Positions 1,024 through 23,502 of a DNA stretch of 23,502 bases are shown piece by piece. The position numbers and the translations under genes were made by a program. The DNA is from a virus. Each line of letters opens with the position of its first letter. Positions within the stretch are counted from its first letter, which is position 1. The notes beneath the pieces were generated by a model that saw only the letters and a list, made by a program, of their open reading frames with translations, ran no database searches and was not told the DNA's origin. The stretch covers positions 1 to 23,502 of the IMG/VR virus record IMGVR_UViG_3300049726_000132. The stretch is one strand, 5' to 3'.

Positions 1024-3825
1024 TTGGTGATTTACACAGATGAATATGGGCAGAAATGGCCGCGCAAACCGGACCCGCTAAAGATTGAATTCAACATGAT
1101 CCGGCGGACGTGGAAAATGGTGCTACAACCGCCCTCACCCCGGCCCTCTCCCCCAGGAGAGGGGGAGGCGCAGTTGCTCAAGCATTATCTGAACGCGCGC
1201 AAGTTGATTTGGCCTGACCGTTACTGTCACCGTTGGAGTGAATTGATTTACCGGGAAATCATCAAGAACAGCATCACGATTTTGATGGGGGCGGCGAGCA
1301 GCCAGAAAACGGCCCACGCCAGCGAGTTTAGTCTGATTGATTACTGGGTTTACCCGGATGAAACGGCGGTGCTGGTGAGCAGCACGACACGGGACAAGCT
1401 CGAAGATGCCGTTTGGGGCGAGATGAAAAGTTTATGGAAAGCGGGCAAGGAAAATTTCCCGTGGCTGGCGGGGCACATGATTGAGTATAAACAGCGCATT
1501 GCGACCGATGACCGCGCGGCGAATTCGGACGATGTGCGGGACCTCCGCAAAGGTGTGTTTTGTAAAGCCTGCTACCAGGGAAAACAATGGGTGGGTCTCG
1601 GTAATTATTGTTTTCCAAAAGGCACTCCAATTGATACTCCAAGTGGTCCGGTTCCAATTGAACAATTGAAGCCGAGGGACCAAGTGTGGTGTGCTGCTGG
1701 TTTGAGCTTTATTGAATCCATCGGCAACCGAATGGCTGAATATCTGGTCAGAATCCATTTCGCAGACGGACGCCAAATTGATTGCACGCCAGACCATCCT
1801 TTTTTTACTTCGACGGGTTGGGTAAATGCGGTTGACTTAGATTCCAAATCCATTGTATTGTCACTCTATGAGACCTTGCAAATTCTGCGGGAAGGCCACC
1901 AACAGGCGCGGCTCACCGGCTTATTGCAACACAACTTGTTCCGTCGCGGACAGGTCGAAAAAATGTCCAGTTTGTCGGAAAACGTTTCTGCCTTCGGACA
2001 ACAGGAACAACACTTGTTCAAAGCACTGCATGATGAAATTGAGGATGAGCAACCCGGAATATGTTGTGAAAATGCAGGCGAATACCAATCAAACGGCGAA
2101 GGGCAAAGCGATCAGTTTTGCAATTCTTTCAAACTTGGAGGATCGGCAACGCCGTCGTATTCGCATGTTGGAAAACAACCCGCGAAAATTTCAAACCAAA
2201 CCCTATGCGGGCCGGGGAGTTGGTCACGATCCGTCTCCCGCCGAACGAATTCTGGCGGCAATTTTCCCGGAAACTGCCTACAATTTTTGTGTGCCAACGG
2301 GACAAAGTTCCAAACGCCATCAGCCGCACGTTTATTATCTGGATTTGGCGTGGCTAAAAATAAAATTGGACGTGGAAGTGGACGGGGCATATCACAAAAT
2401 GCCGTTGCAAAAAATCAAGGACCGCAAACGCACGGAGTTTTTGCAAGCGCACGGGTGGACCGTCTTGAGATTCTTGGAAAAGGACGTGGTTCAAAATCCA
2501 ACGCGGGCGAGGAAGGCCATCGAGTCTATAATATCCAAGTTGCGCGCCATCCATCATACAGTGTCAACGGACTGATTGTTCATAATTCCGGCATCAAACA
2601 AAAACGGTTTCGGTTCCAGTGCGATGAATTGCAGTTCATGTCGCCGACCTTTTTAGCCTGTCTGCCGAACATGCGGAGCAATACCGGCGCGGGCGGGTTG
2701 AAGGTGATTGGGTCCGGCAATCCCCGTCACGATCCCAACGATCAGCTTGGCATTGTGGCTGAACCGTTGGACGGCTGGCCGGCAGTGGACGGTCTGGAAA
2801 AGACAACGGTGTGGCCGATCAAGTTGCTGGGCGGTGCGTGTGTGAATCTGATTGGCTTGGACAGTCCGAACTTTGACCAGCCGGATGACAAGTATCGTGG
2901 TTTGATTGGGCACACTTACGAGAAGATCATGGCCCATGATTACGGGAAAAACTCACCCGAATATGAGACGCAAATCATGGGCCGGATGCGGATTGGCCTG
3001 GAACATTCGCGCGTGATAACCCGGCAACTGTGCCGGCTGCATCAGGCCCACGATAAAGCCATTTGGGACGGCAAGCCGCGCACGCGGATTTACTCGGTGG
3101 ACCCGGCTTATGGCGGCGGGGACCGTTGCGTAGGCGGCTGGATTGAATTTGGCGAGGGCATGGACGGCACGCAACTTTTGCGCGTCAATCCCCCGCGCAC
3201 CCTGAAAATTGTCGTCAACCCGAACCTGCCGCCCGAAGATCAGATTGCGGACCTGGTGAAAGAGGATTTGGAACAAAACGGTATTCCGCCCGAAAATTGT
3301 TTTTACGATTCCTTTGGCAAGGGCACGGTGGGGTTCGCCTTTGCGCGCAAGTTTGGCTTCAACCCGCCCGTGCCAGTGGATGCCGGGGCACTCACGACGC
3401 AACGTCCGGTGCGTTACGATTTGTGGGTGACGGAACGGGATGGCCGGCGGCGGCTAAAACAGTGCAATGAACACTATTCCAAGTTCATTACGGAAATGTG
3501 GTTTTCGGTTCGGGAGACGATTGAGAGCAATCAGATGCGCGAGTTGCCAGAGGATGTGATGGCCGAAGGGTGCTGGCGCGAGTACCAGACCGTAGCCGGC
3601 GACAAAATTGAAGTCGAGCCGAAGGACGATTTGAAAGAAAGAATGGGGAAAAGCCCGGACCTGTTCGACTGGCTGGCGATTGCCCTGGAAGGCGCGCGGC
3701 AACGCGGCTTCAAAATCAAACGGCTGGGCGCGGACGTGCCGGTGGAAAATTCAAGCTGGGACTGGTTTATGAAGCAACAGGACCGGCTGCACGAGCAACG
3801 GCAGAAACATGCGCTGACGTTTTAA
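1024..3825 (+). CDS. terL: Phage terminase large subunit (DNA-packaging ATPase/nuclease) interrupted by an intein
   Basis: 933-residue precursor; removing the intein (residues 196-521) leaves 607 residues, a normal TerL size. The motor powers DNA packaging through the portal and cuts concatemeric DNA. Seen in the sequence: Walker A at 89-96 (GAASSQKT, with Gln replacing the usual last Gly), Walker B after the intein (FQCDE, acidic pair 534-535), a coupling motif GSGNP at 563-567, and candidate RuvC-like nuclease acidic residues D693 (SVDPAYGGGD), D762 (FYDSFGKG) and D882 (FDWLA). The start is uncertain: TTG at 1024 and GTG at 1027 are in frame, the first ATG is at 1096, and no Shine-Dalgarno is clear. 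A palindromic repeat adds an in-frame Pro/Gly/Glu stretch near residues 36-49. It is the only virion gene here on the plus strand, and its stop codon abuts the tRNA. Confidence 0.9.
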   Translation: MVIYTDEYGQKWPRKPDPLKIEFNMIRRTWKMVLQPPSPRPSPPGEGEAQLLKHYLNARKLIWPDRYCHRWSELIYREIIKNSITILMGAASSQKTAHASEFSLIDYWVYPDETAVLVSSTTRDKLEDAVWGEMKSLWKAGKENFPWLAGHMIEYKQRIATDDRAANSDDVRDLRKGVFCKACYQGKQWVGLGNYCFPKGTPIDTPSGPVPIEQLKPRDQVWCAAGLSFIESIGNRMAEYLVRIHFADGRQIDCTPDHPFFTSTGWVNAVDLDSKSIVLSLYETLQILREGHQQARLTGLLQHNLFRRGQVEKMSSLSENVSAFGQQEQHLFKALHDEIEDEQPGICCENAGEYQSNGEGQSDQFCNSFKLGGSATPSYSHVGKQPAKISNQTLCGPGSWSRSVSRRTNSGGNFPGNCLQFLCANGTKFQTPSAARLLSGFGVAKNKIGRGSGRGISQNAVAKNQGPQTHGVFASARVDRLEILGKGRGSKSNAGEEGHRVYNIQVARHPSYSVNGLIVHNSGIKQKRFRFQCDELQFMSPTFLACLPNMRSNTGAGGLKVIGSGNPRHDPNDQLGIVAEPLDGWPAVDGLEKTTVWPIKLLGGACVNLIGLDSPNFDQPDDKYRGLIGHTYEKIMAHDYGKNSPEYETQIMGRMRIGLEHSRVITRQLCRLHQAHDKAIWDGKPRTRIYSVDPAYGGGDRCVGGWIEFGEGMDGTQLLRVNPPRTLKIVVNPNLPPEDQIADLVKEDLEQNGIPPENCFYDSFGKGTVGFAFARKFGFNPPVPVDAGALTTQRPVRYDLWVTERDGRRRLKQCNEHYSKFITEMWFSVRETIESNQMRELPEDVMAEGCWREYQTVAGDKIEVEPKDDLKERMGKSPDLFDWLAIALEGARQRGFKIKRLGADVPVENSSWDWFMKQQDRLHEQRQKHALTF
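1131..1168. repeat. REP-like GC-rich palindrome inserted in frame in terL
   Basis: The 8-base arm CCCTCTCC (1144-1151) and its exact complement GGAGAGGG (1156-1163) flank the loop CCCA. It is preceded by CCCTCACCCCGG. The whole block resembles a dispersed palindromic repeat commonly seen in bacterial genomes, usually between genes; I recall this from general experience and have not searched. Here it is translated as PPSPRPSPPGEGE, a proline-rich insert between the N-terminal helix region and the Walker A domain of the terminase. Confidence 0.7.
1609..2586 (+). mobile_element. Intein in terminase (326 residues), inserted just before Walker B
   Basis: The protein-splicing element begins at Cys196 (block A: CFPKGTPIDTPSG) and has a block B motif CTPDHPFF (T255, H258). 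Its C-terminal blocks F and G are VYNIQV... and NGLIVHN, ending in His520-Asn521, with Ser522 as first residue of the C-extein (SGIKQKR). These are the expected residues for a Cys1/Ser+1 splicing intein. The host joint lies in GLGNY|SGIKQ, 12 residues before the Walker B acidic pair, an active-site-proximal position typical of inteins. The in-frame central part (about residues 281-500) has no recognisable domain; this DNA instead encodes an endonuclease in another frame. Splicing itself is inferred. Confidence 0.92.
1868..2575 (+). CDS. Zinc-finger / Vsr-like (DUF559-type) homing endonuclease nested out of frame within the intein
   Basis: 235 residues from the ATG at 1868, in the +1 frame relative to the terminase/intein. 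N-terminus: two zinc-ribbon-like units, Cys4-Cys7-Cys20-Cys24 and Cys33-Cys36-Cys50-Cys54. C-terminus: a restriction-endonuclease-fold core resembling very-short-patch repair nucleases and DUF559 proteins, with E126 (AERIL), D159 (YYLDLAW), E170/D172 (DVEVDG), H176 (AYH) and the closing strand GWTVLRFLEKDV. The likely role is cutting intein-free terminase alleles so the intein can spread. Its last 17 or so codons use the same bases as intein block F/G, so the overlap reaches essential splicing residues. An upstream in-frame TTG (1853) is less likely. It could be made by internal initiation or by a +1 frameshift from the intein; I see no strong ribosome-binding site. Confidence 0.88.
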   Translation: MRPCKFCGKATNRRGSPAYCNTTCSVADRSKKCPVCRKTFLPSDNRNNTCSKHCMMKLRMSNPEYVVKMQANTNQTAKGKAISFAILSNLEDRQRRRIRMLENNPRKFQTKPYAGRGVGHDPSPAERILAAIFPETAYNFCVPTGQSSKRHQPHVYYLDLAWLKIKLDVEVDGAYHKMPLQKIKDRKRTEFLQAHGWTVLRFLEKDVVQNPTRARKAIESIISKLRAIHHTVSTD

Positions 3826-3900
3826 TGGTTGCGGGACTTGGAATCGAACCAAGGACAGGCAGTTTATGAGGCTGCCGAACTACCACTGTTCTATCCCGCA
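3826..3900 (-). tRNA. tRNA with CAT anticodon (elongator Met, or Ile2), CCA encoded
   Basis: 75 bases fold as a cloverleaf: acceptor TGCGGGA/TCCCGCA (7 perfect pairs), D stem GAAC/GTTC with loop AGTGGTA, anticodon stem GCAGC/ACTGC with loop CTCATAA, 5-base variable region, T stem CTTGG/CCAAG with loop TTCGATT, discriminator A and encoded CCA. The last anticodon-stem pair is a C-A mismatch. The U1-A72 pair and lack of three G-C pairs in the anticodon stem argue against initiator tRNA. CAT may be read as Met, or as Ile if the C is modified to lysidine. Its 3' CCA lies directly against the terminase stop codon (convergent, no spacer). Confidence 0.93.
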
Positions 3901-9663: not shown

Positions 9664-9839
9664 GGCAGGATATGTTTTTTAATCTTGGGCTGGGGGTGGC
9701 GGGAAAGCGGCGGGTACTTTTTGAGCGCGGCTTTTTCCAGTTTCGCCAAATCCAGGGGCGTGGCAAAGGACCGCTTTATTTGGCGGTCAATTTCGGCCTG
9801 GTCACGCGCCGCGTCAATTTGTTGAGGTGTCACTTCCAT
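9660..9839 (-). CDS. Small hypothetical protein (59 aa) following portal
   Basis: Starts at ATG 9839 (MEVTPQQIDAARDQAEIDRQ), preferred over TTG 9845 two codons upstream; its start lies 26 bases inside the end of the portal gene. The N-terminal half is an acidic/basic helix, the end is basic with PPLSRHPQPKIKK. Function unknown. Retained because it bridges portal and the 125-residue gene with overlaps at both ends. Confidence 0.6.
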   Translation of the reverse strand: MEVTPQQIDAARDQAEIDRQIKRSFATPLDLAKLEKAALKKYPPLSRHPQPKIKKHILP

Positions 9840-12198
9840 ACTCAAACATTTGTTTCATCCGGTCGTGGTTAAGTTCCTGCAAGTGTTTCTGGGCGTCCTG
9901 TTCCATCTGTTGCTCGAATTGAATCTGGCGCTGGGCCGTGCGCTGGGCGTGAGACTCGCGCGTGTTTTGCGACTTGGTCTGAGCCATGACCATCGTGGCC
10001 TGTATCTTGGCAGCAGTTTCGGGGTCGAGTCCGCCACCGTTCTGGCCCTTTTGTTTCTTGGCGGCTTCGGCGGCGCGTTGGGCGAGAGCTTTGACCTGGT
10101 TCATTAACTTGGCCAAGGCATCGGTGTATTGTTTCACCTTTTCTTTGACGGTGTGATCCGGGGGCACGCCTTTGACGTGCATCGGCTTTTCGTCCTCGGC
10201 CATGAGGTTAAGATGGTTTTTGACGCCATTGCCTTGGACGGGCTGGCCTTGGATGTTCTCGCCGGCCAGGCTTTGCAGGCCGTTGAGTTCGTCCGGGGTG
10301 ATGGGCGTGCCGCGTCCGCCGATTTGCTGGGTCTTGATGGCCAGGGCCAGTAACAGAGCTTCGACATATTCGGAATGGTTGACGCCTTCCTTGAGGGCCA
10401 CGGGCAAGCTTTGCAGCATGGCCCCGGCAGCCAGTTGCGCGTCGTGAATCGAATCGCTGACTACTGGTTCGTCCGGGACCGCCTGCCGGGCCAGTTCGTA
10501 ATCGTCGGTGGTGATGGCCAGGCCGGAACGCAACATGTGGCGCTGGGCGGTGGGGTCGAGCTTGTTGTAATACAGCATCATGATTTTATCCATCATGGCC
10601 ATTTGCAGCATTTTATTGCCGGACCCCATGACGCGGACGGGTTGAACATTCCAGCGTTCAACGTTCAAGGCTTCTTCGGGTACGCCGGCTCGCAACACGG
10701 ACACCCGGAATTTACGGACATCGGCATCGCGGCTGTTAGGGATGCAAAACCGGCGGCAGATTTCGTCGTACTGATATTTCTGGTAGTTGTAAGCCTGGCT
10801 CAACATGCCACTGACAAGCGCGGCGCTGGTGTTGACTTTGGCCATCGTGCGGGTGGCAGTTTCGTTTTCGCCCTGCTCCATGTCGTAGTCCTGGGTGAAC
10901 GAAGCAGAATTATCGGCCATCATTTGCCGGTTCTTTTGCAGGGCCATCGTCACGATATTGGGGTCCACTTCCCAGCGTTCATCGCGCTTTACAAATGCCA
11001 GGCCATCGGGCAGGGCTTTTTTGTCAGTGAGGTCCACTTTCCAAGCGCGTTCGGCATCGGTAGGATTGGTGATGCGGAAATACTGCATCAAGGATTCAAA
11101 GGTAGCTTCGTCGAACTTGCAGTTGAGGCGGTTTTGCAGGTGACAGATGGAGTAAAGCAAAAAGCCCAGGGAGCGGACACTATGATAACGGAACGGGGCG
11201 ACACAGGAACAATCGGCAAACTGAAAGTGGATGGTCTGGTCGAGCTTGTCGCAAAAGACCGGATTTTTACGTTCTTCGGAATCGTAGAGGAATTCCGACT
11301 TGTCAAAATTCCAGACGTTGTATTTGCCGGGTTGTTTGACCCCGCGCTTGTCCAGGAGCATCCCGCCTACCCCGCCGACACCAGGCTCGCCCCAGGCATC
11401 GAGGATGATTTTCTTGCGCCAGCCGGAATGCTTGTCCTCATCGTTCCAATACAGAAACTCAAAACAATCCACGGTGGGGATGGCGTCGGAGGAATACAGT
11501 CCGCCATCCTGCTTGATACGCTCTTCCATTTTTTCCGGTGACCACACTTCCGGCCACGAGGCGGACATAAGTTGTTTACACTGCTGGTCCACCCATTTAA
11601 CCGCCTTCTCGGCTACCGGCACGTTCCAGCCAGGGTCCACTTGCGGGCGGTGCGTCATTTCCCACAATTCGCGTCCGGTGTACTGACGGTAACGGGCGAG
11701 GAAGGGGAGGTTTTTGCGTGAGAGCAGCGTGTTGGACGGGACTAAAATATCTTCAACGCCATCGGCTTCGGGACACCAACTGTAAGCATCTTCCCAACTG
11801 GACGGGCCAATCCCATGCAGGACCAGAAGGGCAAAGACGCTACGCCGGGTTTCCATGTAGGGCAGTGAATGCCGGATGATTTTGTTCAGATAGGTTTGAA
11901 TGAGGCCGGCCCACTCGCGGCGCTGCCAGACCGGGCCGTAATCCAACTCGACGGCAAAGAGCGGGTCGGGAGTAATCAGGGCATTGGACAACTGACGGCG
12001 GGCGGCATGGGAAATGTTGGACAGGGACAGGTCATTGTAATTGACGGCAATCTTGTTGGCGGACACTTCGGACTCGTTGTAGGGAGGCCAACCGTTGGCC
12101 AGATTATTGATCCGGGCACGGTTCTGAGCGCGCGGCCAGTCGGCCAAACGCATTTGCCAAACGACTTGCTCCACGGTCTGAGCATGGGTGAATTCCAT
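9814..12198 (-). CDS. Phage portal protein (head-tail connector), probable
   Basis: 794 residues. The portal ring sits at one capsid vertex, docks the terminase and later the tail. Support: size, N-terminal MEFTHAQTVEQVVWQMRLAD with RINNLANGWPPYNESEV, an aromatic central part (MQYFRITN, SASFTQDYDMEQGENETATR resembling a portal wing/stem region with conserved Glu-rich turn), and a long C-terminal Gln/Ala-rich helix (VKALAQRAAEAAKKQKGQ, then RQIQFEQQMEQDAQKHLQE) typical of portal barrels. ATG 12198 is preceded by an open stretch without stop back to 12247 (IAPLDAIPFHYNVEG) but with no start codon, so the native start may be upstream in a shifted frame; see the intergenic entry. The next gene's start is inside its end. 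Confidence 0.8.
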   Translation of the reverse strand: MEFTHAQTVEQVVWQMRLADWPRAQNRARINNLANGWPPYNESEVSANKIAVNYNDLSLSNISHAARRQLSNALITPDPLFAVELDYGPVWQRREWAGLIQTYLNKIIRHSLPYMETRRSVFALLVLHGIGPSSWEDAYSWCPEADGVEDILVPSNTLLSRKNLPFLARYRQYTGRELWEMTHRPQVDPGWNVPVAEKAVKWVDQQCKQLMSASWPEVWSPEKMEERIKQDGGLYSSDAIPTVDCFEFLYWNDEDKHSGWRKKIILDAWGEPGVGGVGGMLLDKRGVKQPGKYNVWNFDKSEFLYDSEERKNPVFCDKLDQTIHFQFADCSCVAPFRYHSVRSLGFLLYSICHLQNRLNCKFDEATFESLMQYFRITNPTDAERAWKVDLTDKKALPDGLAFVKRDERWEVDPNIVTMALQKNRQMMADNSASFTQDYDMEQGENETATRTMAKVNTSAALVSGMLSQAYNYQKYQYDEICRRFCIPNSRDADVRKFRVSVLRAGVPEEALNVERWNVQPVRVMGSGNKMLQMAMMDKIMMLYYNKLDPTAQRHMLRSGLAITTDDYELARQAVPDEPVVSDSIHDAQLAAGAMLQSLPVALKEGVNHSEYVEALLLALAIKTQQIGGRGTPITPDELNGLQSLAGENIQGQPVQGNGVKNHLNLMAEDEKPMHVKGVPPDHTVKEKVKQYTDALAKLMNQVKALAQRAAEAAKKQKGQNGGGLDPETAAKIQATMVMAQTKSQNTRESHAQRTAQRQIQFEQQMEQDAQKHLQELNHDRMKQMFEYGSDTSTN

Positions 12199-12972: not shown

Positions 12973-13704
12973 TTAAACCACCGGGACCGCCAAGCGCAAT
13001 AATTCTTTCTCGGCCCATTCTGCCGAATGTTCGCCCATGTAGGATGGGGAACAACTCCACGCTGCGCCCTTGTCGCCGGTCACCAGACCGCACCGGGCGT
13101 AATTTCTGGCGTTCTTTTTTTTGGTGTATTCATAGCCCAGGTAACGGTAGTGCAGCAATTTGATGCCGGCGTCGTGGACCTGCTCCGGGACATTTTCAAC
13201 GCGGTGTTTGCCGCGACTCCACCGGATGGCCGTAGCTGGCTGGAAAATAACCGGCTTGTTGTAGGTAGGAGCCAGACAACCCGTTTTGACCAAGTCGTAA
13301 ATCTGGCTGTGGCCGTCATCGAGGGGCAAGCCCTGGTTGGCCATGTTGAAGCCGGTTGCGCCCAAAATCTTGTGCCCGTCCCATTTTGCGTTGGCCAGGA
13401 CCAAACCCATTTCAGGGTGATAAAGAAATTCGTCCAGGTCCGGCCAGATTACCCAATCGGCAAGGCCGATAAATTTCGGATAGATGGCGTAACAAAATTC
13501 CAGGAATTTATCTTCGGCGATGCCGTCGTTGTGTTCCCAATCGTGCAGGATGACTTTGGGGTGAGCCTTCAAAAGTTCCCGGCTGCCGTCCGTGCTGTGG
13601 TCGTCCCAGACATTGATTTCATCGGCAATGGTCGAGTAGTGCCGCAGGAAAAACGGCAGGATTTCCGACTCGTTGTAGCACAGGCTACAAACAACAACGT
13701 TCAT
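12973..13704 (-). CDS. Family-2-like glycosyltransferase A (243 aa)
   Basis: GT-A fold signature: MNVVVCSLCYNESEILPFFL, the nucleotide-binding DDHSTDGS at 34-41, WVIWPDLDEFLYHP with PDLDEF at 88-93 (metal-binding DxD-type), and a basic acceptor region with HRVENV. It is of the type that responds to 'DDxSxDGT' family-2 enzymes, transferring a sugar from a nucleotide donor. It is a paralogue of 14602-15330: the two key motifs fall at identical residue numbers. It starts by ATGA overlap (13701-13704) with the 66-residue gene. Confidence 0.88.
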   Translation of the reverse strand: MNVVVCSLCYNESEILPFFLRHYSTIADEINVWDDHSTDGSRELLKAHPKVILHDWEHNDGIAEDKFLEFCYAIYPKFIGLADWVIWPDLDEFLYHPEMGLVLANAKWDGHKILGATGFNMANQGLPLDDGHSQIYDLVKTGCLAPTYNKPVIFQPATAIRWSRGKHRVENVPEQVHDAGIKLLHYRYLGYEYTKKKNARNYARCGLVTGDKGAAWSCSPSYMGEHSAEWAEKELLRLAVPVV

Positions 13705-13901
13705 GTTTTATGGTTCGACGACACATGCGATTCTGCCATCGGCAGGTTATCGCGGATGAAGCCAGTGACATCCTTTATGGTGTCGAAACTGCATTGAGAC
13801 TTTCCGAAATTCCATAGCAAGGAATAACGATAGCTCGGCAGGATGGTTACTTTAACCGGCGTTGTTGTTGTCGAACAAGTTGGGGCTTTTGCTGGTTTCA
13901 T
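13701..13901 (-). CDS. Small hypothetical protein (66 aa) between two glycosyltransferases
   Basis: Start ATG 13901 (MKPAKAPTCSTTTTPVKVTI) makes an ATGA overlap with the PLOD-like gene upstream; its end makes another ATGA with glycosyltransferase A. A Thr-rich stretch, then LPSYRYSLLWNFGKSQCSFD and GFIRDNLPMAESHV. No recognised domain. The double coupling supports reality. It could be a small partner of the neighbouring enzymes. Confidence 0.6.
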   Translation of the reverse strand: MKPAKAPTCSTTTTPVKVTILPSYRYSLLWNFGKSQCSFDTIKDVTGFIRDNLPMAESHVSSNHKT

Positions 13902-14605
13902 AAGTTGAACCACGGACTCAACCGGGTAAGGTCCGCGTTTCCGTTCCCGTGAAACAGGCAGGGATTTTCCCCCGTTTCAACCGCTTTGATCCGGCCATTT
14001 TCAAAGACCAAATGGTCCATCGAATCCATGTTGCAGCAGTAGAGCAGCGAACATTTGTTGTCGAGGGTGATAGGCAGTTGCTTGGACAAAAACAGGTCAA
14101 CGCAAATGCCACTGTCGCACTGTTTGTTTACCTTGGCCGGGTCGGCATTTTCCTTGGACCGCGCCGCCAGAACTTCGGCCAGCTTCAAGGCGTGTTCGGT
14201 GGTGGCCATCCACATGCCGGCGTTGAGAAACCGGGTCTTGTACGGTGACGGCGGATAGAGTTCAGCTTGTTCCTGTTTCGGCCAGCAGTAGCGTTCGGTC
14301 CCGAAAACGATGGGGCTGTTCAGGGCCTCATACTTGGCCAGGATTTCGTCCCAGCCGGCAGCGAACAGGATGTCGTAGGCATCGCAAAACAGGAAGTGCG
14401 TGTATTCGGCGGCGTGGTCCCGGACAAAGCGGGCCTGGGCCGCGCTCTTGCGCCACCAGGGGATTTCGTACCATTCCCGGCCCGGCCACAATTCGGGGTC
14501 GGCATTCATGGGGGTGATGCCGTGGCGCTTGGCGGTGGCCATGAAGGCGTTGAAATGTTTGCGGGCGTCACACCACGTTGAGACACAGACAGGTTTGGCG
14601 TTCAT
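13898..14605 (-). CDS. PLOD / procollagen-type glycosyltransferase (235 aa)
   Basis: Key signature: FLFCDAYDILFAAGWDEI with D-A-Y-D at 75-78 (metal/donor site), PIVFGTERYCWPKQE with CWP at 107-109, FLNAGMWMA at 126-134 and a late LFHGNG (218-222). This set (DAYD, CWP, LN(A/S)G, HGNG) is the hallmark of the glycosyltransferase domain of procollagen galactosyl/lysyl-hydroxylase glucosyltransferases and its microbial relatives. It likely moves a hexose onto a hydroxylated or other acceptor. It is coupled by ATGA on both sides. A collagen-like protein is encoded in the same window (124-966), which raises the acceptor question; no lysyl hydroxylase is visible. Confidence 0.85.
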   Translation of the reverse strand: MNAKPVCVSTWCDARKHFNAFMATAKRHGITPMNADPELWPGREWYEIPWWRKSAAQARFVRDHAAEYTHFLFCDAYDILFAAGWDEILAKYEALNSPIVFGTERYCWPKQEQAELYPPSPYKTRFLNAGMWMATTEHALKLAEVLAARSKENADPAKVNKQCDSGICVDLFLSKQLPITLDNKCSLLYCCNMDSMDHLVFENGRIKAVETGENPCLFHGNGNADLTRLSPWFNL

Positions 14606-15330
14606 ATTACATCACTCAGTTTTCTTTTGGAAATTTCTTCAAACCAACCTGCGCCATGATGGTCGGTCCATGAAGGGGCGCAATTGGTTCCCAGATTCAG
14701 ACGGCGGCAGCGGTCGGGCACTCTGGCCCAATTGCGGTTATGGCGCTGGCGCAGATAATCCATTCCCAGACAACGGTAGTGGAGCAGCTTCAATTCGACC
14801 TGGTCGCTGGGCCGGAGTTTGACGGCGTCCTGGTCGTAACTGTGACGGCCTACGGTCCACTTCATCCCGGCCCGAAAAACCGCCGGCTTGGACCAGACAT
14901 CATCATAAAATCCGGTTTTGATCTCATCGTAAATCTGGCCGCTGGTGGTCGGGAAATGGTCCGAAACCATCGTGTACCCCTGAATCCGGGGCAGGTCCAC
15001 CCCCTCTTTCCGAAAGCGCGCCAACACTTCCAAAATGTTCGGGTGATAAATGAATTCATCGGCGTCAATCCAGATAACCCAATCGGCTTTGCCGATGGCT
15101 TCCTGCCAATGCGTGTTGGCAAAGTCCAGGAATTCGTCATCCACAATTCCGTGCGTGCCCGGCCAGTCCCGAAGTTCAGCCTTGGGACAGGCGGCAATCA
15201 ACTGCCGTGTCCCGTCATCACTTTGGTCGTCGTAGAAAATTAGTTTGTCAACGAACGTGGTGTAGTGCCGTAGAATATACGGCATCAAGCGCGCCTCATT
15301 CCGGCAGATGCAAAAGAGCCAGACATTCAT
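14602..15330 (-). CDS. Family-2-like glycosyltransferase B (242 aa), paralogue of A
   Basis: Starts at ATG 15330 (MNVWLFCICRNEARLMPYIL), an ATGA overlap with the methyltransferase upstream; the longer reading to 15432 would run into that gene. DDQSDDGT at 34-41, WVIWIDADEFIYHP with IDADEF at 88-93, and a later GRHSYDQDAV. Same length, start sequence and motif spacing as 12973-13704, but with a classical D-x-D (DAD) here. The pair probably arose by duplication and may add different sugars or act in sequence. Confidence 0.9.
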   Translation of the reverse strand: MNVWLFCICRNEARLMPYILRHYTTFVDKLIFYDDQSDDGTRQLIAACPKAELRDWPGTHGIVDDEFLDFANTHWQEAIGKADWVIWIDADEFIYHPNILEVLARFRKEGVDLPRIQGYTMVSDHFPTTSGQIYDEIKTGFYDDVWSKPAVFRAGMKWTVGRHSYDQDAVKLRPSDQVELKLLHYRCLGMDYLRQRHNRNWARVPDRCRRLNLGTNCAPSWTDHHGAGWFEEISKRKLSDVI

Positions 15331-15947
15331 ACGCGAAGGATGCCAATGCCGCCGTGGGGGACAACGCCCCGGTATGCCCGGTGAGTTTCGTTGGCGATAA
15401 TTTCTTCTTTCGGGCAGGTCAATTCCTTCCAAAACCGGGCGGTTTGCACATTGGCTTGTTGTTCCCCGTGCGGGCCAAGATTGGCCAGCGGATTGATGTC
15501 ATGGAAACAAATCCAGCCACCGGGCCGGACCAGGGGTTTCCAGATTTTGAACTCGCTGACATCGTCCTCGTAGCAATGGCCATCGTCAATGAACAACAAG
15601 TCAATCGGGCCGCCCAGCATTTTCATAATAGGTTCGGCGCAGCCCAGCAGGCGTGCGTCGGTTAAAACAAATTCCAAATTGCGGCCATACGGGATCACGC
15701 CGGAAGTGTCGTAGTGGTCAATGTCCACAGTAATAGTCTTGCCTTCGGTGACCTGGCTCAACAGCGCGGCCTGGCAGCCCTTGTAGGTGCCGAGTTCCAC
15801 GGTGCGTTGCGGTTTCAACTCGTTGAGTACCTTCGAGAAAAAAGCGCGCAATTCCCATTCGTGTTGCTGGATGTCGCCCCGGTCCAGGAACACACGCAAG
15901 GCCGTTTCCATGCAGTCGGGCAACCTCAGTTCCGGGGGCAGGTTCAT
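15327..15947 (-). CDS. Class I SAM-dependent methyltransferase 1 (206 aa)
   Basis: Start ATG 15947 (MNLPPELRLPDCMETALRVF) by ATGA overlap with methyltransferase 2; the extension to 16049 is not needed. Rossmann motif I ELGTYKG at 51-57, the acidic end of strand 2 (ITVDIDHYD), DLLFIDDGHCYEDDVSEFKI as the strand-4/active segment and GGWICFHDI. This is the Methyltransf_24 (small-molecule O-methyltransferase-like) pattern, often seen beside glycosyltransferases where sugars or acyl groups are methylated. It is a paralogue in type, though not close in sequence, to the next gene. Confidence 0.88.
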   Translation of the reverse strand: MNLPPELRLPDCMETALRVFLDRGDIQQHEWELRAFFSKVLNELKPQRTVELGTYKGCQAALLSQVTEGKTITVDIDHYDTSGVIPYGRNLEFVLTDARLLGCAEPIMKMLGGPIDLLFIDDGHCYEDDVSEFKIWKPLVRPGGWICFHDINPLANLGPHGEQQANVQTARFWKELTCPKEEIIANETHRAYRGVVPHGGIGILRV

Positions 15948-16600
15948 GGTTTGATGACCAGCCGTTTCTCGGCTTCGGCGTGGATCAGCCCTGCCAGGTC
16001 CATGCGGTCGGCAAATCGGTTCCAATCCGTCACCACATCGGGAAACCACCGGCTCACGTCATCCACCAGCAACGCCCCGCCACTGGCCAGTAACGGCCAA
16101 TAGGTTTCGTAATCGCGCAAGACATCGCCAGCCTCGTGCGAGCCGTCCACATAAATCATCTGGGCGAGGATGCCATGAGCGGCCAGGTAACGGGCGGCAT
16201 TGGCGGAATCCAAGGCCAGCGGGATAATCATGTCCTGGTGTCCGTACTTGATGACGTTGGAAATAAATTCGTAGTAGAGCGCGGGCCGGCCAAAGTGGTA
16301 ATGCAGTTTCTCACGGGCCTTGGTCCAGTGGTCGAAACCGCCGTACCAGGTATCCACACAGATAATGGCGGCATCCAACTTTTTGGCCTTGCAAAGTTTT
16401 GCCATGTGCAGGGCGCTGCCGCCCAAAAAAGTTCCCACTTCGATGATGATGCCGGGCTGGCTCTGGTCAATGGCCCGCTCGAAAATGGGCACGGTCGAGC
16501 CGTCCGTGTTTTCGTAGCCCGCCCATTGTGCGGCGGGGAAATTGGTGTAGGGATCAACGCCGGGCAACAGGTGTTCGGAAATGGTTCGGGCCAAGCTCAT
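15944..16600 (-). CDS. Class I SAM-dependent methyltransferase 2 (218 aa)
   Basis: Start ATG 16600 (MSLARTISEHLLPGVDPYTN) by ATGA overlap with the radical SAM gene. Motif I EVGTFLGGSA at 54-63, AAIICVDTWYGGFDHW (strand 2 acidic end), IYVDGSHEAGDVLRDYETYW and GGALLVDDVSRWFPDV. This is like CmcI/cephalosporin-hydroxylase-type or Methyltransf_24 proteins that methylate small molecules or sugars. The long insertion between the D-T-W and the second acidic motif is usual for the group. It is the second methyltransferase in tandem, suggesting two methylation steps. Confidence 0.88.
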   Translation of the reverse strand: MSLARTISEHLLPGVDPYTNFPAAQWAGYENTDGSTVPIFERAIDQSQPGIIIEVGTFLGGSALHMAKLCKAKKLDAAIICVDTWYGGFDHWTKAREKLHYHFGRPALYYEFISNVIKYGHQDMIIPLALDSANAARYLAAHGILAQMIYVDGSHEAGDVLRDYETYWPLLASGGALLVDDVSRWFPDVVTDWNRFADRMDLAGLIHAEAEKRLVIKP

Positions 16601-17367
16601 ACGGTGGCTTCTTTCATCCACTCTTCGCGGTTAAAGGTTTCATGCCAACTGTTCCGGCTGTTGTTCGCCCCGGCACAATGGGTGCAACTGACCAGGGGTG
16701 TGCGGCGGGCCAGGAATTCGGCGGCCGATTTTTCCGTGAGGCCGGCCAGCGGCAAGCCGTCAACGTGCGGGTCCAGTCCCCAAAACTGTTCCGGGAAAAA
16801 AGCGGCGAGCGGACAATGATAAAAATAGCCTTCGTGGATGGTGTAACAGGTCTTGCAGGGGCAAACATTCCAGACGCCCGCGCCGCCGTCCTTTTGTTCA
16901 TAAAACAGTTTCCAAAAAATGGGGGTGTTGCCGGGCCGGACTTCAAACCCGTACTGTTCGGCCTTGCGGGTCGGTTCTTCCAGCGTTTTCACGTCCAAAT
17001 TTGCATAGACCGATACCCGGAATTCGAGTTTTTTGTCACCGACTTTCATTTGGCCGCATTTGCGGAAAAATTCTTCGGGCATTTTGTGCAGCAGTCTGCC
17101 GTTGGAGAGGAAACCGTGTTGATCCGCAATGCCGGAATCTTTGGCCACGTCCATCAGTTCCATGACGCGGGGATGCAAAAGCGGTTCACCGCCTTGCAGA
17201 CAGAGAAAACCAATATGCAGCCTGGGCGACAAGGCAGCCAGGTCGCGCCGCAAAGTTTCCGGGTCCATGAAATAGGGTTTAGCCAGGGGCGAGCCGTGAT
17301 TGCAGTAGGCACAATGATTGTTGCAATGGCGGCAAACATTGATTTCGCACTTGTCTATGAAAATCAT
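16597..17367 (-). CDS. Radical SAM protein with C-terminal (SPASM-like) cysteine cluster
   Basis: 256 residues. C15-x3-C19-x2-C22 (CNNHCAYC) binds the 4Fe-4S cluster that cleaves SAM; C12 lies just before. It then has the SAM-contacting GGEP in FLCLQGGEPLLHP. The C-terminal half has CPCKTC, YHCPL, and near the end CTHC, a Cys pattern like SPASM/twitch auxiliary clusters. Such enzymes make carbon-centred radicals on peptides, sugars or other substrates. The substrate here is not shown by sequence; context suggests a glycan or glycopeptide target, with oxygen-sensitive chemistry. 2-base gap to the next glycosyltransferase gene and ATGA with methyltransferase 2. Confidence 0.88.
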   Translation of the reverse strand: MIFIDKCEINVCRHCNNHCAYCNHGSPLAKPYFMDPETLRRDLAALSPRLHIGFLCLQGGEPLLHPRVMELMDVAKDSGIADQHGFLSNGRLLHKMPEEFFRKCGQMKVGDKKLEFRVSVYANLDVKTLEEPTRKAEQYGFEVRPGNTPIFWKLFYEQKDGGAGVWNVCPCKTCYTIHEGYFYHCPLAAFFPEQFWGLDPHVDGLPLAGLTEKSAAEFLARRTPLVSCTHCAGANNSRNSWHETFNREEWMKEATV

Positions 17368-17369
17368 AA

Positions 17370-18173
17370 TCAGGTCAATCCGAGTTGATAGAGCATTTGA
17401 ATGGCGGTGACGGTTTTTTTCTCACCCTTAACCCAAATGTCCTGCGGCTGGTCGAGGGCGCCGTGGGACCAGAACTGTTGCAGATGGTTGGGGGGCGTAA
17501 CGTGGTCGTCCATTTGTTCGACCAAGTGGTATTGGTCCCGGAAAAGTTGCATCGCCACGTTGCCCAAGGTGACGTATTCACAAAAGCCCTGGGGGAATTG
17601 GTTGCGGCAGGCGCGGATGTAATCAGGCACCGGCTGGCCGGTCTTTTGTTCCATCAACTGGCGCGCGGCGGCGTACAGGCCGCGATGATAAACTTCCGGG
17701 TGACAGCGCATGGTTTCGTAATGCACGGGGAACGGCAGGCATTTGGCGGTGGCTTCCTGCCAGCGGACGACGCCGGGATGGCGGGCACCGATGAAGTTGA
17801 AATTTTCAAAGCGCAAAATCGGTTTGCCGTCTTTGATGTAGGTGTCCGGGGTGACGGGTTCGGTAAAAACACAGTCGGGGTCAATGTGAGCGACGAAATC
17901 AGCTTGGGGACACCATTCGTCGGCGTGCATGACCTGGTTCATGTGCCAGACCATACCCAAGCCGGGCCATTCATCAGCACCCAGACAGATGACGGGCAAG
18001 TCAGCGGTGCCGGGCACTTCGGCCACGAGGTTTTCCAAAGCAACCCGGTCCTCGGCTGGGACCAAAATCCGAAAACCATTAAAACCCTGGGCGAACTTCA
18101 CCGCCGAGCGCAGACAGTATTTGAGCCAGGTGAAATCCTTGACACAGGTACAGGTAAAAAATTGGGTGGTCAT
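17370..18173 (-). CDS. Glycosyltransferase-like protein (267 aa), DxD type
   Basis: Starts MTTQFFTCTCVKDFTWLKYC; the central DFVAHIDPDCVFTEPV holds a D-x-D-C motif (about 96-100) like nucleotide-sugar-binding sites, and NFIGARHPGV may be the acceptor side. Overall pattern recalls DUF6492-like phage/bacterial glycosyltransferases. The rest includes a Cys/Tyr-rich stretch and a C-terminal helix. Coupled by ATGA to the two-domain gene upstream (18170-18173). Confidence in the fold is fair; the sugar and acceptor cannot be read from sequence. Confidence 0.75.
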   Translation of the reverse strand: MTTQFFTCTCVKDFTWLKYCLRSAVKFAQGFNGFRILVPAEDRVALENLVAEVPGTADLPVICLGADEWPGLGMVWHMNQVMHADEWCPQADFVAHIDPDCVFTEPVTPDTYIKDGKPILRFENFNFIGARHPGVVRWQEATAKCLPFPVHYETMRCHPEVYHRGLYAAARQLMEQKTGQPVPDYIRACRNQFPQGFCEYVTLGNVAMQLFRDQYHLVEQMDDHVTPPNHLQQFWSHGALDQPQDIWVKGEKKTVTAIQMLYQLGLT

Positions 18174-20672: not shown

Positions 20673-20954
20673 GAAAAGATAAGTTTCAAGGCTTGGGCGG
20701 CAGTTTGTCAGACGTGCCAAAGATTTTCCGGGATGTGCCAGGGTTTCGCTTCGAATCGTTTTGAATGGCTTGCCAAACTTTTCCTCTACGCCACTCAGAA
20801 ACTGCTGCGCAAAGGATTTCGATGAACGTTCAGCTTTTCTCTTGTCGTCGGATTTCTGCTTGCGAGCAGCCGCAGAAGCCAACAACCGCTTTCCGGACGG
20901 TGTTCGCGTCCAAGGCGCCTTCTTCGTTTTTGGTTTGTAATTTTTTAGGCTCAT
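20658..20954 (-). CDS. Basic hypothetical protein (98 aa)
   Basis: Start ATG 20954 (MSLKNYKPKTKKAPWTRTPS) chosen by ATGA overlap with the upstream gene. Very rich in Lys/Arg (KKAPWTRTPSGKRLLASAAA, RKQKSDDKRKAERSSK), then SFAQQFLSGVEEKFGKPFKT. No motif known to me. A highly charged protein of this kind could bind nucleic acid. Base composition is poorer in GC than the glycosylation run. Confidence 0.6.
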   Translation of the reverse strand: MSLKNYKPKTKKAPWTRTPSGKRLLASAAARKQKSDDKRKAERSSKSFAQQFLSGVEEKFGKPFKTIRSETLAHPGKSLARLTNCRPSLETYLFRATF

Positions 20955-21232
20955 GGCGTTGCCGCGTAGCCGATCATGGCTTGTTGAATTTTCTGGCCGG
21001 CCAGGGTTGGCGAAATTGTCCACGAATTCCACGGCGTCCGGTAGCTACTGAACTGCATTTGAGGATGGCCCCGAAGTCGTATTATTATCACGGCATCAGC
21101 TTTTACCTTTGGCACGAACACGTTTGAGTTTTCAGGAATCAATTCGGCTGCCGCCTTATGGCGATAGAAATTACGAATCTTACTTGAAATATACGCCTTC
21201 TTTCCGTAACTGCTTGATTTGTAGCGGGCCAT
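20951..21232 (-). CDS. Hypothetical protein (93 aa)
   Basis: Starts MARYKSSSYGKKAYISSKIR; a basic N-terminal helix and a later IIIRLRGHPQMQFSSYRT. No family recognised. It starts only one base after the TAA of the Zn-ribbon gene (21234-21236) and ends with an ATGA overlap, so it is in the same transcript as genes on both sides. It lies just left of the first attC-type core (21270), so it is the phage-side neighbour of the cassette array or part of the same insert. Confidence 0.55.
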   Translation of the reverse strand: MARYKSSSYGKKAYISSKIRNFYRHKAAAELIPENSNVFVPKVKADAVIIIRLRGHPQMQFSSYRTPWNSWTISPTLAGQKIQQAMIGYAATP

Positions 21233-21233
21233 A

Positions 21234-21485
21234 TTATTCGTTTAATTTTGGGTGAGGCATATCTGCTTTGTTAGCTGCTAGTTGTTTTTCGAGATGTCGC
21301 TTTCGGCCACGGGCGACTGTCACGAGTATGATTGCCGACTGCCGGCGAGACTCCACTGATTCTCGCGGGTCTTTGAAGTATTTCATCGCTGGATGGTTGG
21401 CGAGGTATGCCTCGCAGTCATCACACAGCATGGTGTCCGTTGGCTTTTTGCCGCCGCAGGGGCAGCTTGTATTTTCGTAGCTCAT
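21234..21485 (-). CDS. Zn-ribbon-like small protein (83 aa), cassette A
   Basis: Begins MSYENTSCPCGGKKPTDTML with Cys8-Cys10 and CDDC (21, 24), a likely zinc site, followed by a hydrophobic/basic helix (SAIILVTVARGRKRHLEKQL). Function unknown. ATG at 21485 is 18 bases below the attC-1 inner boundary. The gene runs through the left core site GTTAGCT (21270-21276), so its last ~12 residues come from outside the cassette. It is oriented opposite to the attC polarity. Confidence 0.75.
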   Translation of the reverse strand: MSYENTSCPCGGKKPTDTMLCDDCEAYLANHPAMKYFKDPRESVESRRQSAIILVTVARGRKRHLEKQLAANKADMPHPKLNE

Positions 21486-21502: not shown

Positions 21503-21610
21503 AGCTAACACCGCTCTGCTGCCAACGCGGGTTACGGCTTTAGGTGAGGCTTTGGCTCTTGTGTTTGGTTTCATAAAATTCAGCGCGTGGCAGAGCTTGG
21601 CCCGTTATCA
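21503..21610 (+). other. attC-1 recombination site
   Basis: 1L core AGCTAAC (21503-21509), left stem CGCTCTGCTGCCAACGCG (21512-21529), right stem CGCGTGGCAGAG (21584-21595), 1R core GTTATCA (21604-21610; cut after 21604). The left stem has several extra bases, one being the A of CCAACGCG, against the right. The spacer of about 55 bases holds the stop of the gene at 21580. Confidence 0.78.
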
Positions 21611-21933
21611 GGATTCCGTTTGTCCGCTGCCTTCCGTGCGTATTCGTCGCTCGACATGCAGCTATCGCAGAAGTGATGCGGAGTTTTTCCGTAGTCGAGG
21701 CAGTTACCTTCCTGCCATGTGTGATAGAGGTCGCCGCAGATGTCGCAGCGTTCGATATAGTCAGGCACTTGCCAGTATTCGTTGCCGAGATACCAGATGA
21801 CCGTCCATGCTTGGTCGGGCGTGAGTTTTGGGCGGTGGCTTCTGGTCACATGAGTTCCTTCCGGCATTTTGCCTTGCAGGAAATCGAACAGTTGCTTTGT
21901 CCGCTCTAGTTGCTTGTCATTTTCTTCACTCAT
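21580..21933 (-). CDS. Zn-finger-like small protein (117 aa), cassette B
   Basis: Starts MSEENDKQLERTKQLFDFLQ (coiled helix), then LTPDQAWTVIWYLGNEYWQV and a metal site: CDICGDLYHTWQEGNCLDYG, then HHFCDSCM, i.e. two CxxC pairs with further Cys/His. Function unknown; the aromatic-plus-zinc pattern suggests protein or nucleic-acid binding. ATG 21933 lies 8 bases left of the attC-2 1L core; the stop (21580) is in the attC-1 spacer, so the last ~9 residues cross the cassette boundary. It is antisense to the attC polarity. Confidence 0.8.
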   Translation of the reverse strand: MSEENDKQLERTKQLFDFLQGKMPEGTHVTRSHRPKLTPDQAWTVIWYLGNEYWQVPDYIERCDICGDLYHTWQEGNCLDYGKTPHHFCDSCMSSDEYARKAADKRNPDNGPSSATR

Positions 21934-21941
21934 AAAAATCC

Positions 21942-22029
21942 TGATAACAAATCGGTGCAGGCAACGGCGGGTTGCGCTGCGGGTTAATTCGGGCGTCAGG
22001 CTCCGCCGTGCCTGACCTCACTGTTAGGC
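21942..22029 (+). other. attC-2 recombination site
   Basis: 1L core TGATAAC (21942-21948), left stem GGTGCAGGCAACGGCGG (21954-21970), right stem CCGCCGTGCCTGACC (22003-22017), 1R core GTTAGGC (22023-22029; cut after 22023). Pairing is complete except two unpaired left-arm bases, G (GGT[G]CAGG) and A (GGC[A]ACGG), 5-6 bases apart, the same pattern as in classic aadA-type attC sites. Confidence 0.85.
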
Positions 22030-22427
22030 TTCCTATCCACCTTTACCTTGATGAAGTTCGCGTTTTCCCATCGGAAAGGCCGCCCGCCGTCGAAATCTAG
22101 CGTGATGTCCCATACTTTACGTGTCGGGATAGGCTCGTCGTCTCCGTAGCCAGCCGCACGCGCCTCTTCGCGGGTGGCGAAGTATGGAGCGTCTCCGACT
22201 GCTATGAGTGTTCCGATGCCTTCAATCGGATCACGCGATTTCATCATGTGCGTTGTGGTTTCCATAACGAGGTCTCCGACCTTTGGGTTTCTGAGTTCCT
22301 CAAATAGCTCATGGATTGATTCCGGCCCCGCGCATAGAGACGCGCACCAAAGTTGGTAAGCAGACCCCTTGAGAAGCCTAACAAGGCGCTGGAGACAATC
22401 GGCGTTGGATGTTTCTTTTTCGTTCAT
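21996..22427 (-). CDS. Small protein (143 aa), cassette C, function unknown
   Basis: Start ATG 22427 (MNEKETSNADCLQRLVRLLK); ATG 22451 is possible. Later VGDLVMETTTHMMKSRDPIE, GIGTLIAVGDAPY, then ARAAGYGDDEPIPTRKVWDI and FDGGRPFRWENANFIKVKVD. The 'GDLVMET..., G-GTL...' opening and strand-rich end suggest a small SH3-like beta barrel. The start lies in the spacer of attC-3 and residues of NADCLQRLVR come from its left arm; the stop (21996) falls in attC-2. It is thus stitched from cassette plus att DNA, and is antisense to attC polarity. Confidence 0.75.
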   Translation of the reverse strand: MNEKETSNADCLQRLVRLLKGSAYQLWCASLCAGPESIHELFEELRNPKVGDLVMETTTHMMKSRDPIEGIGTLIAVGDAPYFATREEARAAGYGDDEPIPTRKVWDITLDFDGGRPFRWENANFIKVKVDRKPNSEVRHGGA

Positions 22428-22487
22428 AAAAGGTTTCTGGTTGCTGGACATCGCGGGTCGCCGATGTCTCAGCTTGGTATGTTCGGC
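22376..22487 (+). other. attC-3 recombination site
   Basis: 1L core GCCTAAC (22376-22382), left stem GCTGGAGACAATCGGCG (22388-22404), right stem CGCCGATGTCTCAGC (22459-22473), 1R core GTTCGGC (22481-22487; cut after 22481). The arms pair fully if one G and one A of the left arm are left out, 5-6 bases apart. The spacer carries the start codon of the 143-residue gene. Confidence 0.88.
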
Positions 22488-22795
22488 TACGCGGTTTCGA
22501 TTTCTGGTGGATCGGGGATTGCATATAGGGTGCGTTCCACCTCGCGCATCCATTTATTCAATCGGCGGCGCCCCTTGCCTTGCCAAGCGAATCGCCAGCG
22601 CATGAAGTTTTCCATTGCTCGGTCGTGCTTTGCGAAGGCGTGGCGTGTCGCTTTGCGCCATTTTTGGATGTCATCTGACGCGACCGCCGAACAAGGTGTT
22701 GCAGATAATTCGCTTTGTCCCTTACATTCGCACGGCTCGTCATCTACTGACCACTTTTTGCACTTGGTGCATTGGCTGTAATTTTTACCGCTCAT
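22487..22795 (-). CDS. Zn-ribbon-like small protein (102 aa), cassette D
   Basis: Starts MSGKNYSQCTKCKKWSVDDE with CTKC and later CECKG, likely one zinc site, followed by a Lys/Arg/Trp-rich helix (DIQKWRKATRHAFAKHDRAM, then WQGKGRRRLNKWMREVE). Function unknown; the basic helical half suggests nucleic-acid contact. Start ATG (22793-22795) is in the right stem of attC-4 and forms an ATGA overlap with the preceding gene; the TAG stop (22487-22489) touches the 1R core of attC-3. It is antisense to the attC polarity. Confidence 0.78.
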   Translation of the reverse strand: MSGKNYSQCTKCKKWSVDDEPCECKGQSELSATPCSAVASDDIQKWRKATRHAFAKHDRAMENFMRWRFAWQGKGRRRLNKWMREVERTLYAIPDPPEIETA

Positions 22796-22816
22796 ATCTG
22801 AACTTTCTCGTTAGAC
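22686..22816 (+). other. attC-4 recombination site
   Basis: 1L core GCCGAAC (22686-22692), left stem GTTGCAGATAATTCGC (22698-22713), right stem GCTCATATCTGAAC (22790-22803), 1R core GTTAGAC (22810-22816; cut after 22810). The best-paired part, GTT[G]CAGATA[A]T, again has an extra G and an extra A on the left arm; the inner end has mismatches. The long spacer codes for the N-terminus of the 102-residue protein. Confidence 0.78.
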
Positions 22817-23331
22817 GGCTCGGCCACGGTTGTTTTTTCTTCGTGAGTTTTTAAGGCGGCGTCTATTGCTGCTCTGATGTTGCGAGTGTTGCTTGTTTGG
22901 TCGCTTGGAAGCTCCACCGACCATGATTTAGGCACTTCGAGTTCGTAGCCCCAATTATCCAGCCAGTCGAGTCGAGCGGTGTCAGCCCCAGCCGCGCTGG
23001 ATTCCTGTTCGAGTTCGTGGACTGCCATCTTTAGTTGTTTGTGCCACATTGCAAATTGACGCAGCAAGTCGCCGTTCACGCTCTCCCAATGGAGAGCGTT
23101 GTTCATTCCTTTTTCTATGTATTTGAGTTTTTCGATTGTAGCTTTCATATTTTTGAGGCGGCGCGCAGGCGCTTTATTATCGGCCATTACGACATTTTCA
23201 CCACGCCACAGCACGGCGTTGCAGTCAGAGTCCAGACAGATTTCATCATCCGTTCTTGGTGTTTCAGACGGCGGACGTTCTCCGCGCTCCTCGCCTTGTT
23301 TCCAGTGTTCCAGATATTGCTGTGCGTTCAT
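22792..23331 (-). CDS. Phage-like hypothetical protein with RLDWLD motif (179 aa), cassette E
   Basis: Start ATG 23331 (MNAQQYLEHWKQGEERGERP) is set by ATGA overlap with the partial gene upstream; an in-frame ATG at 23370 would add 13 residues overlapping it. Seen: RTDDEICLDSDCNAV, a helical middle (KATIEKLKYIEKGMNNALHW) and DTARLDWLDNWG followed by NIRAAIDAAL. The 'DTARLDWL...R.AIDAAL' pair is common in phage-borne and host hypotheticals (Ea22-like). The stop is inside the right stem of attC-4 and overlaps the next start (ATGA). Confidence 0.75.
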   Translation of the reverse strand: MNAQQYLEHWKQGEERGERPPSETPRTDDEICLDSDCNAVLWRGENVVMADNKAPARRLKNMKATIEKLKYIEKGMNNALHWESVNGDLLRQFAMWHKQLKMAVHELEQESSAAGADTARLDWLDNWGYELEVPKSWSVELPSDQTSNTRNIRAAIDAALKTHEEKTTVAEPSNEKVQI

Positions 23332-23502
23332 TTTGTTGGTGGGTTTAGGCGCGCATATTCTTCCGACCATTGCCGGATTGTTTCATCGTTCATGCTCCGT
23401 TCACGACCGAATGTGGACGGCAGATTGATGCTTGAGTGCCGACCGCCGGCAGTCGAAAAGGTCAGCCATACGCCATCTTCGGATGATTGGATTGCTAGTT
23501 TT
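23328..23502 (-). CDS. Partial hypothetical protein, C-terminal 58 residues
   Basis: The frame enters from beyond the window and ends in a TGA at 23328-23330. The visible residues begin KLAIQSSEDGVWLTFSTAGG, then RHSSINLPSTFGRERSMNDE, then TIRQWSEEYARLNPPTK. The Ser/Gly/Arg-rich middle and the terminal ETIRQW...EYARL helix are unlike the attC genes' Zn patterns and I do not know the family. It makes an ATGA overlap with the 179-residue gene, so the unit continues upstream. Confidence 0.7.
   Translation of the reverse strand, partial: KLAIQSSEDGVWLTFSTAGGRHSSINLPSTFGRERSMNDETIRQWSEEYARLNPPTK

Follow-up and report, generated by a model that had tools for sequence, protein, structure and literature searches.

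An integron-type attC cassette array with antisense genes on a phage contig, and similar arrays in other phages

The window analyzed here, i.e. the whole stretch of DNA, is an entire IMG/VR record of 23,502 bases without an end repeat, and near its right end it carries an integron-type attC cassette array. The evidence supports the view that this array belongs to a genuine phage genome. The presence of attC sites in phages is not new, and the unexpected part is gene polarity: the cassette genes of the window, like most phage cassette genes, are antisense to attC, sense orientation being a usual, if not strict, feature of integrons. Very probably, the region is a phage-borne CALIN (there is no integrase on the visible part) of Verrucomicrobia-type integron origin, with its polarity rewired to that of the phage operon.

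A terminase gene is found at 1024-3825 (PHROG 2), and its ORF (933 aa) contains an apparent intein- or Hint-like insertion (GNYCFPKGTPIDTPSGPVPIEQLKPRDQVW...NIQVARHPSYSVNGLIVHNS). Adjoining this ORF is a tRNA gene (3829-3900, minus strand) with 84% identity to a stretch of the array-bearing phage G012 (L073 17869-17944); an Rfam search of the window returned tRNA only. The 794-aa product of 9814-12198 is probably the portal protein, judged from its position and size, no family match naming it. Relatives are present on eight other viral contigs (48-100% identity), and a comparison with GenBank phages gave no match. By eye, 12973-18173 appears to contain a run of several minus-strand genes of glycosyltransferase-like, methyltransferase-like and radical-SAM-like kinds. 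Nucleotide likeness to four of these contigs (G001, G002, G003 and G008) reaches about 20,700 and then ends, and the array starts at about 21,270. It runs past the end of the contig, as in the phage contig G009 a further attC follows 52 bp after the equivalent of position 23502. The initial annotation noted neither this overrun nor the antisense direction of the genes. The sites at the array and the gene beside it are as follows:

20951 to 21232, minus strand: array-flanking gene, with homologues that adjoin the arrays of G011 (62% over 326 bp, L068) and G012 (68% over 218 bp, L072).
21267 to 21280, plus strand: half-site on the left edge of the array, with GTTAGCTGC as its right core, the best chaining partner of attC1; neither a covariance-model match nor a full attC was found here.
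21503 to 21610, plus strand: attC1, 22.1 bits (E 6.4e-4), chaining over 9 nt to 21270.
21943 to 22029, plus strand: attC2, 38.9 bits (E 4.6e-8), its left arm bearing an extra G and an extra A, chaining over 12 nt to 21604.
22376 to 22487, plus strand: attC3, 61.1 bits (E 1.4e-13), with these two extra bases (G, A) also in its left arm.
22686 to 22816, plus strand: attC4, 31.6 bits (E 3e-6), again with both extra bases (G, A) in its left arm, chaining over 7 nt to 22481.

The initial annotation had described four attC-like palindromes between 21503 and 22816 and had proposed that they be checked with an attC covariance model (CM). All four are present, and a bacterial-attC CM matches them with high scores on the plus strand (E 1.4e-13 to 6.4e-4); attC1 is the weak one of the set. 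The next-best match in the 23.5-kb window has an E value of 0.035; read on its minus strand, the best site drops to 11.6 bits. The CM was built from 17 aligned attCs, all from contigs of Verrucomicrobia metagenome-assembled genomes (MAGs) and with no sequence of the window phage among them, and 13 of its 22 pairs vary on both sides across these sites; the scan pattern that fetched them was derived from phage sites, so the host sites used are ones that resemble those of phages. One 5-kb Verrucomicrobia MAG contig of mixed polarity (L038) was excluded. The CM also matches sites in five further phage contigs with arrays, and the examined sequence of array-less relatives of the window phage gave no convincing match (best E 0.24). 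A strict consensus scan (RYYYAAC...GTTRRRY) of the region found nothing, because several cores, such as GTTATCA and GTTCGGC, depart from the consensus.

The R''/R' and L''/L' pairing of a folded site, as scored by the CM of known attCs, is found in all four matches. An extra G and an extra A had been reported on the left arm of at least three sites; they are clear in three of the four, about 6 bases apart, and give extrahelical bases of the T-N6-C type on the bottom strand. Sites with bottom-strand T-N6-C are excised well by IntI1 (PMC3053210). The left arm of attC1 is a variant, with an extra CTG and A. In single-site DNA folding, only attC2 and attC3 have z-scores that beat shuffled sequences, and since the folding energies are not in every case better than those of shuffles, the case rests on the CM and on core chaining.

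Chaining, in which the left core of a cassette can pair with the R'' of the attC belonging to that cassette, had been claimed for all four sites and is upheld, extending over 9, 12, 10 and 7 nt to the preceding core. Of all GTTs upstream of a site within the window, the preceding core makes the best partner for attC1, attC2 and attC3 (among 448, 461 and 472 sites, respectively) and ranks fourth of 481 for attC4, at 7 nt. The cassettes and genes so delimited are:

21604 to 22022: cassette A, from core G^TTATCAGG to attC2.
21580 to 21933, minus strand: cassette A gene, antisense to attC, encoding a cysteine-rich protein of 117 aa with no Pfam family over cut-off.
22023 to 22480: cassette B, from core G^TTAGGC to attC3.
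21996 to 22553, minus strand: cassette B gene, an ORF of 185 aa, or 151 aa from an ATG within attC3.
22481 to 22809: cassette C, from core G^TTCGGC to attC4; missing at the corresponding position of G009.
22487 to 22795, minus strand: cassette C gene, 102 aa, with a cysteine-rich N-terminus and its start within attC4.
22810 to 23502: cassette D, partial, leaving the contig; common to the phage contigs G009 and G010.
22792 to 23370, minus strand: cassette D gene, 192 aa, with an internal segment that differs in G009 and no Pfam or PHROG family.

Searches of the cassette proteins against Pfam and PHROGs gave no match over cut-off and none better than E 0.004, and the cassette B protein has no relative among the viral sequences searched. 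Outside a short replaced segment in its gene, cassette D aligns with G009/G010 in two stretches, one of 380 bp (92% identity) and one of 256 bp (96% identity). Leftward, the identity ends at the core (window CTTTCTC/GTTAGAC; G009 GCGCCCAC/GTTAGAC), and the attC that precedes the cassette differs between the window and G009. The two related arrays therefore part at a cassette edge, (C)GTTAGAC, the one such boundary seen. This breakpoint is what an integrase-made rearrangement would predict, as a single event; homologous recombination that happened to end at the core may also account for it.

Similar arrays, together with phage genes, occur in three genomes with exact terminal repeats of 127 bp, which mark a circular or terminally redundant assembly: G012 (44,480 bp), G014 (43,999 bp; terminase, RusA and at least eight internal attCs) and G022 (39,440 bp; attCs, DnaB, endolysin and primosomal protein), the last retrieved via its integron integrase (IntI). 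An attC of the complete phage genome G014 shares 94% identity with attC3 over 111 bp. In G009 (48,959 bp), three attCs adjoin DnaB in a run of genes that also contains an Erf-like gene. Two array-bearing phages also have in common a coding region of tandem repeats, each unit being some 15 bases long (L069 19534-19903 and L068 6843-7238).

No tyrosine recombinase or integrase was found in the window, which is a fragment. Pfam did not detect IntI in the window, G009, G011, G012 or G013, nor did TIGR02249 in the window and G009; G012 carries a different integrase, of phage type. The window thus lacks the intI and attI in cis of a complete integron, and G022 has the intI: an intact IntI (L152/L207 4087-5091) that scores 354 bits against a cut-off of 265. 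A second record (L169; 3300044731_001268) has attC scores identical to those of G022 at a constant offset. Adjoining the G014 array is an in-frame IntI remnant of 86 aa (L069 12019-12279; TIGR02249, E 3e-11), in which both ends of the integrase are joined and the catalytic middle is deleted. This remnant, the degenerate attC1, the several off-consensus cores and the want of an intact IntI in the window would fit a fossil, captured once along with its integron, whose IntI decayed and whose attCs now serve only as terminators or translation starts, recombination having been lost. We consider such a history unlikely, as the cores still chain over as many as 12 nt, both extrahelical bases and the arm pairing are retained, a common cassette is cleanly bounded where its neighbor differs, and IntI is intact in G022 and in one host MAG.

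The polarity of the longest ORF relative to the attC top strand differs strongly between bacterial and phage arrays, with sense to antisense ratios of 51:10 in Verrucomicrobia and 8:20 in phages (p 1e-6), and of 19:0 in hosts and 1:7 in phages for cassettes of at least 500 bp (p 9e-6). As cassettes within one array or related arrays are not fully independent, these p-values are indicative. A single attC family led to four of the six phage contigs with antisense genes. Antisense ATG-initiated ORFs of at least 50 aa that start within attC are found at 21 of 34 phage sites and 11 of 60 host sites (p 3e-5; p 0.001 without five near-copies of attC3). In the window, the loop of attC1 contains TTCATAAAA, an ATG on the minus strand, and the minus strand of the attC3 loop provides start codons for the gene at 21996. 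Start codons placed in this way travel with the gene, because the attC, as far as G^TT, is part of the cassette.

An artefact of strand assignment, i.e. a wrong attC top strand or true genes on the plus strand, would turn these into ordinary cassettes. An attC is nearly a palindrome, and ORFs occur on either strand of small cassettes, which leaves the polarity of the latter ambiguous (in 22487-22686, for example, the sense ORF is the longer). At IMG/VR loci with IntI, however, all 51 attC matches lie on the strand opposite to intI and point away from it, and as this is the classical geometry the strand calls of the CM are trusted. All seven domain-verified phage cassette genes (six methyltransferases and one PAPS reductase, from G013, G012, G022 and G021) are antisense, including the N6_N4_Mtase and Dam cassettes of G022, whereas the host genes verified by domain (HAD hydrolase, fatty acid hydroxylase) run in the sense direction. 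We regard the artefact as highly improbable. Pooled over all IntI-bearing viral contigs, polarity is mixed (16:11), and the reversal therefore belongs to some phages only.

Least credible of all is a misassembly that fused phage DNA to DNA of a bacterial integron, or the filing of a bacterial integron contig among the viruses: the array does sit at the extreme end of the contig, and close phage relatives have no attC at the corresponding place, but such arrays are present in the three terminally redundant phage genomes, that of G009 adjoins DnaB amid phage genes, the gene beside the array is conserved in three phages (the window, G011 and G012) and cassette D was assembled independently in G009 and G010.

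The attC family of the window was found in Verrucomicrobia MAGs, including Limisphaerales. Five Verrucomicrobia genomes with this family have from 4 to 47 CM matches each, and two of them encode IntI over the curated cut-off; in L063, intI has two attCs on its other side, the classical layout. Integrons of Verrucomicrobiota are already known (PMC8618304). The similarity of the attCs suggests that the host of the window phage is probably a member of the Verrucomicrobia, and attC sequence would in this way tie IMG/VR phages to such hosts.

The initial annotation considered phage contigs with cassette arrays to be hardly described, which is half right. Integrons and 17 CALINs in phages were reported by Qi et al. 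in 2023 (PMC9892861), who showed that IntI1 recombines phage attCs; their text does not appear to describe a consistent reversal of gene polarity. The arrays described here resemble those CALINs in being attC clusters without integrase in phage genomes, and DNA methyltransferase cassettes are cargo in both. According to Qi et al., the cassettes of TJE1 and PH101 have the typical bacterial orientation, whereas here they are mostly antisense, many starting inside attC, and the likely host phylum also differs. A search of the freely available literature found no report of reversed phage cassettes. With the sedentary chromosomal integrons of Verrucomicrobiota, the phages share the attC family (as seen by CM cross-detection), cores such as GTTCGGC and extrahelical bases of the bottom-strand T-N6-C type. 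In those integrons, unlike in the phages, genes run with the attC top strand and have their ends close to attC, and intI is in the same genomes. Atypical integrons of Treponema have intI directed toward attI (PMC3607928), whereas the intI of G022 and G014 is placed and directed as usual with respect to attC, and it is the cassette genes that are reversed.

Under our preferred reading of a phage-borne, rewired CALIN, cassettes would be excised, and inserted again at G^TTRRRY cores, by an integron integrase that works on the folded bottom strand (the minus strand here) and comes from the host or from another phage with an IntI gene. Most phage cassette genes are on the bottom strand of attC and run in the direction of the phage operon; many of them start inside their own attC, making attC the 5' end of the gene, and translation would then draw on transcripts of the phage operon and not on an integron promoter. 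The anatomy and chaining of the sites, the breakpoint at a cassette edge, the complete phage genomes with arrays, two of them with intI or its remnant, the matching host integrons and the reversed polarity are observations; the identity of the acting integrase, ongoing recombination, expression and benefit are what we infer. More tentatively, and with somewhat less than an even chance of being right, some phages may possess a polarity-reversed integron, in which attC supplies the gene's 5' end (start codon and N-terminal leader) and orientation-fixed insertion by IntI places genes at once in line with operon transcription. The result would be a phage-suited pool, silent in host integrons and exchanged among unrelated phages by host or phage IntI. 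The findings indicate that phages may use the integron system as a gene-swapping device of their own, DNA methyltransferases being one example of the cargo, and that the phage and bacterial pools may be set apart by cassette polarity. They also bear on the question of cassette birth, attC here being at the start of the gene and not at its end.

In two Verrucomicrobia integrons, the cassettes nearest to intI (L063 221-590 and L064 239-345) have antisense ORFs that start in attC, as in phages; these are possibly recent captures from phages.
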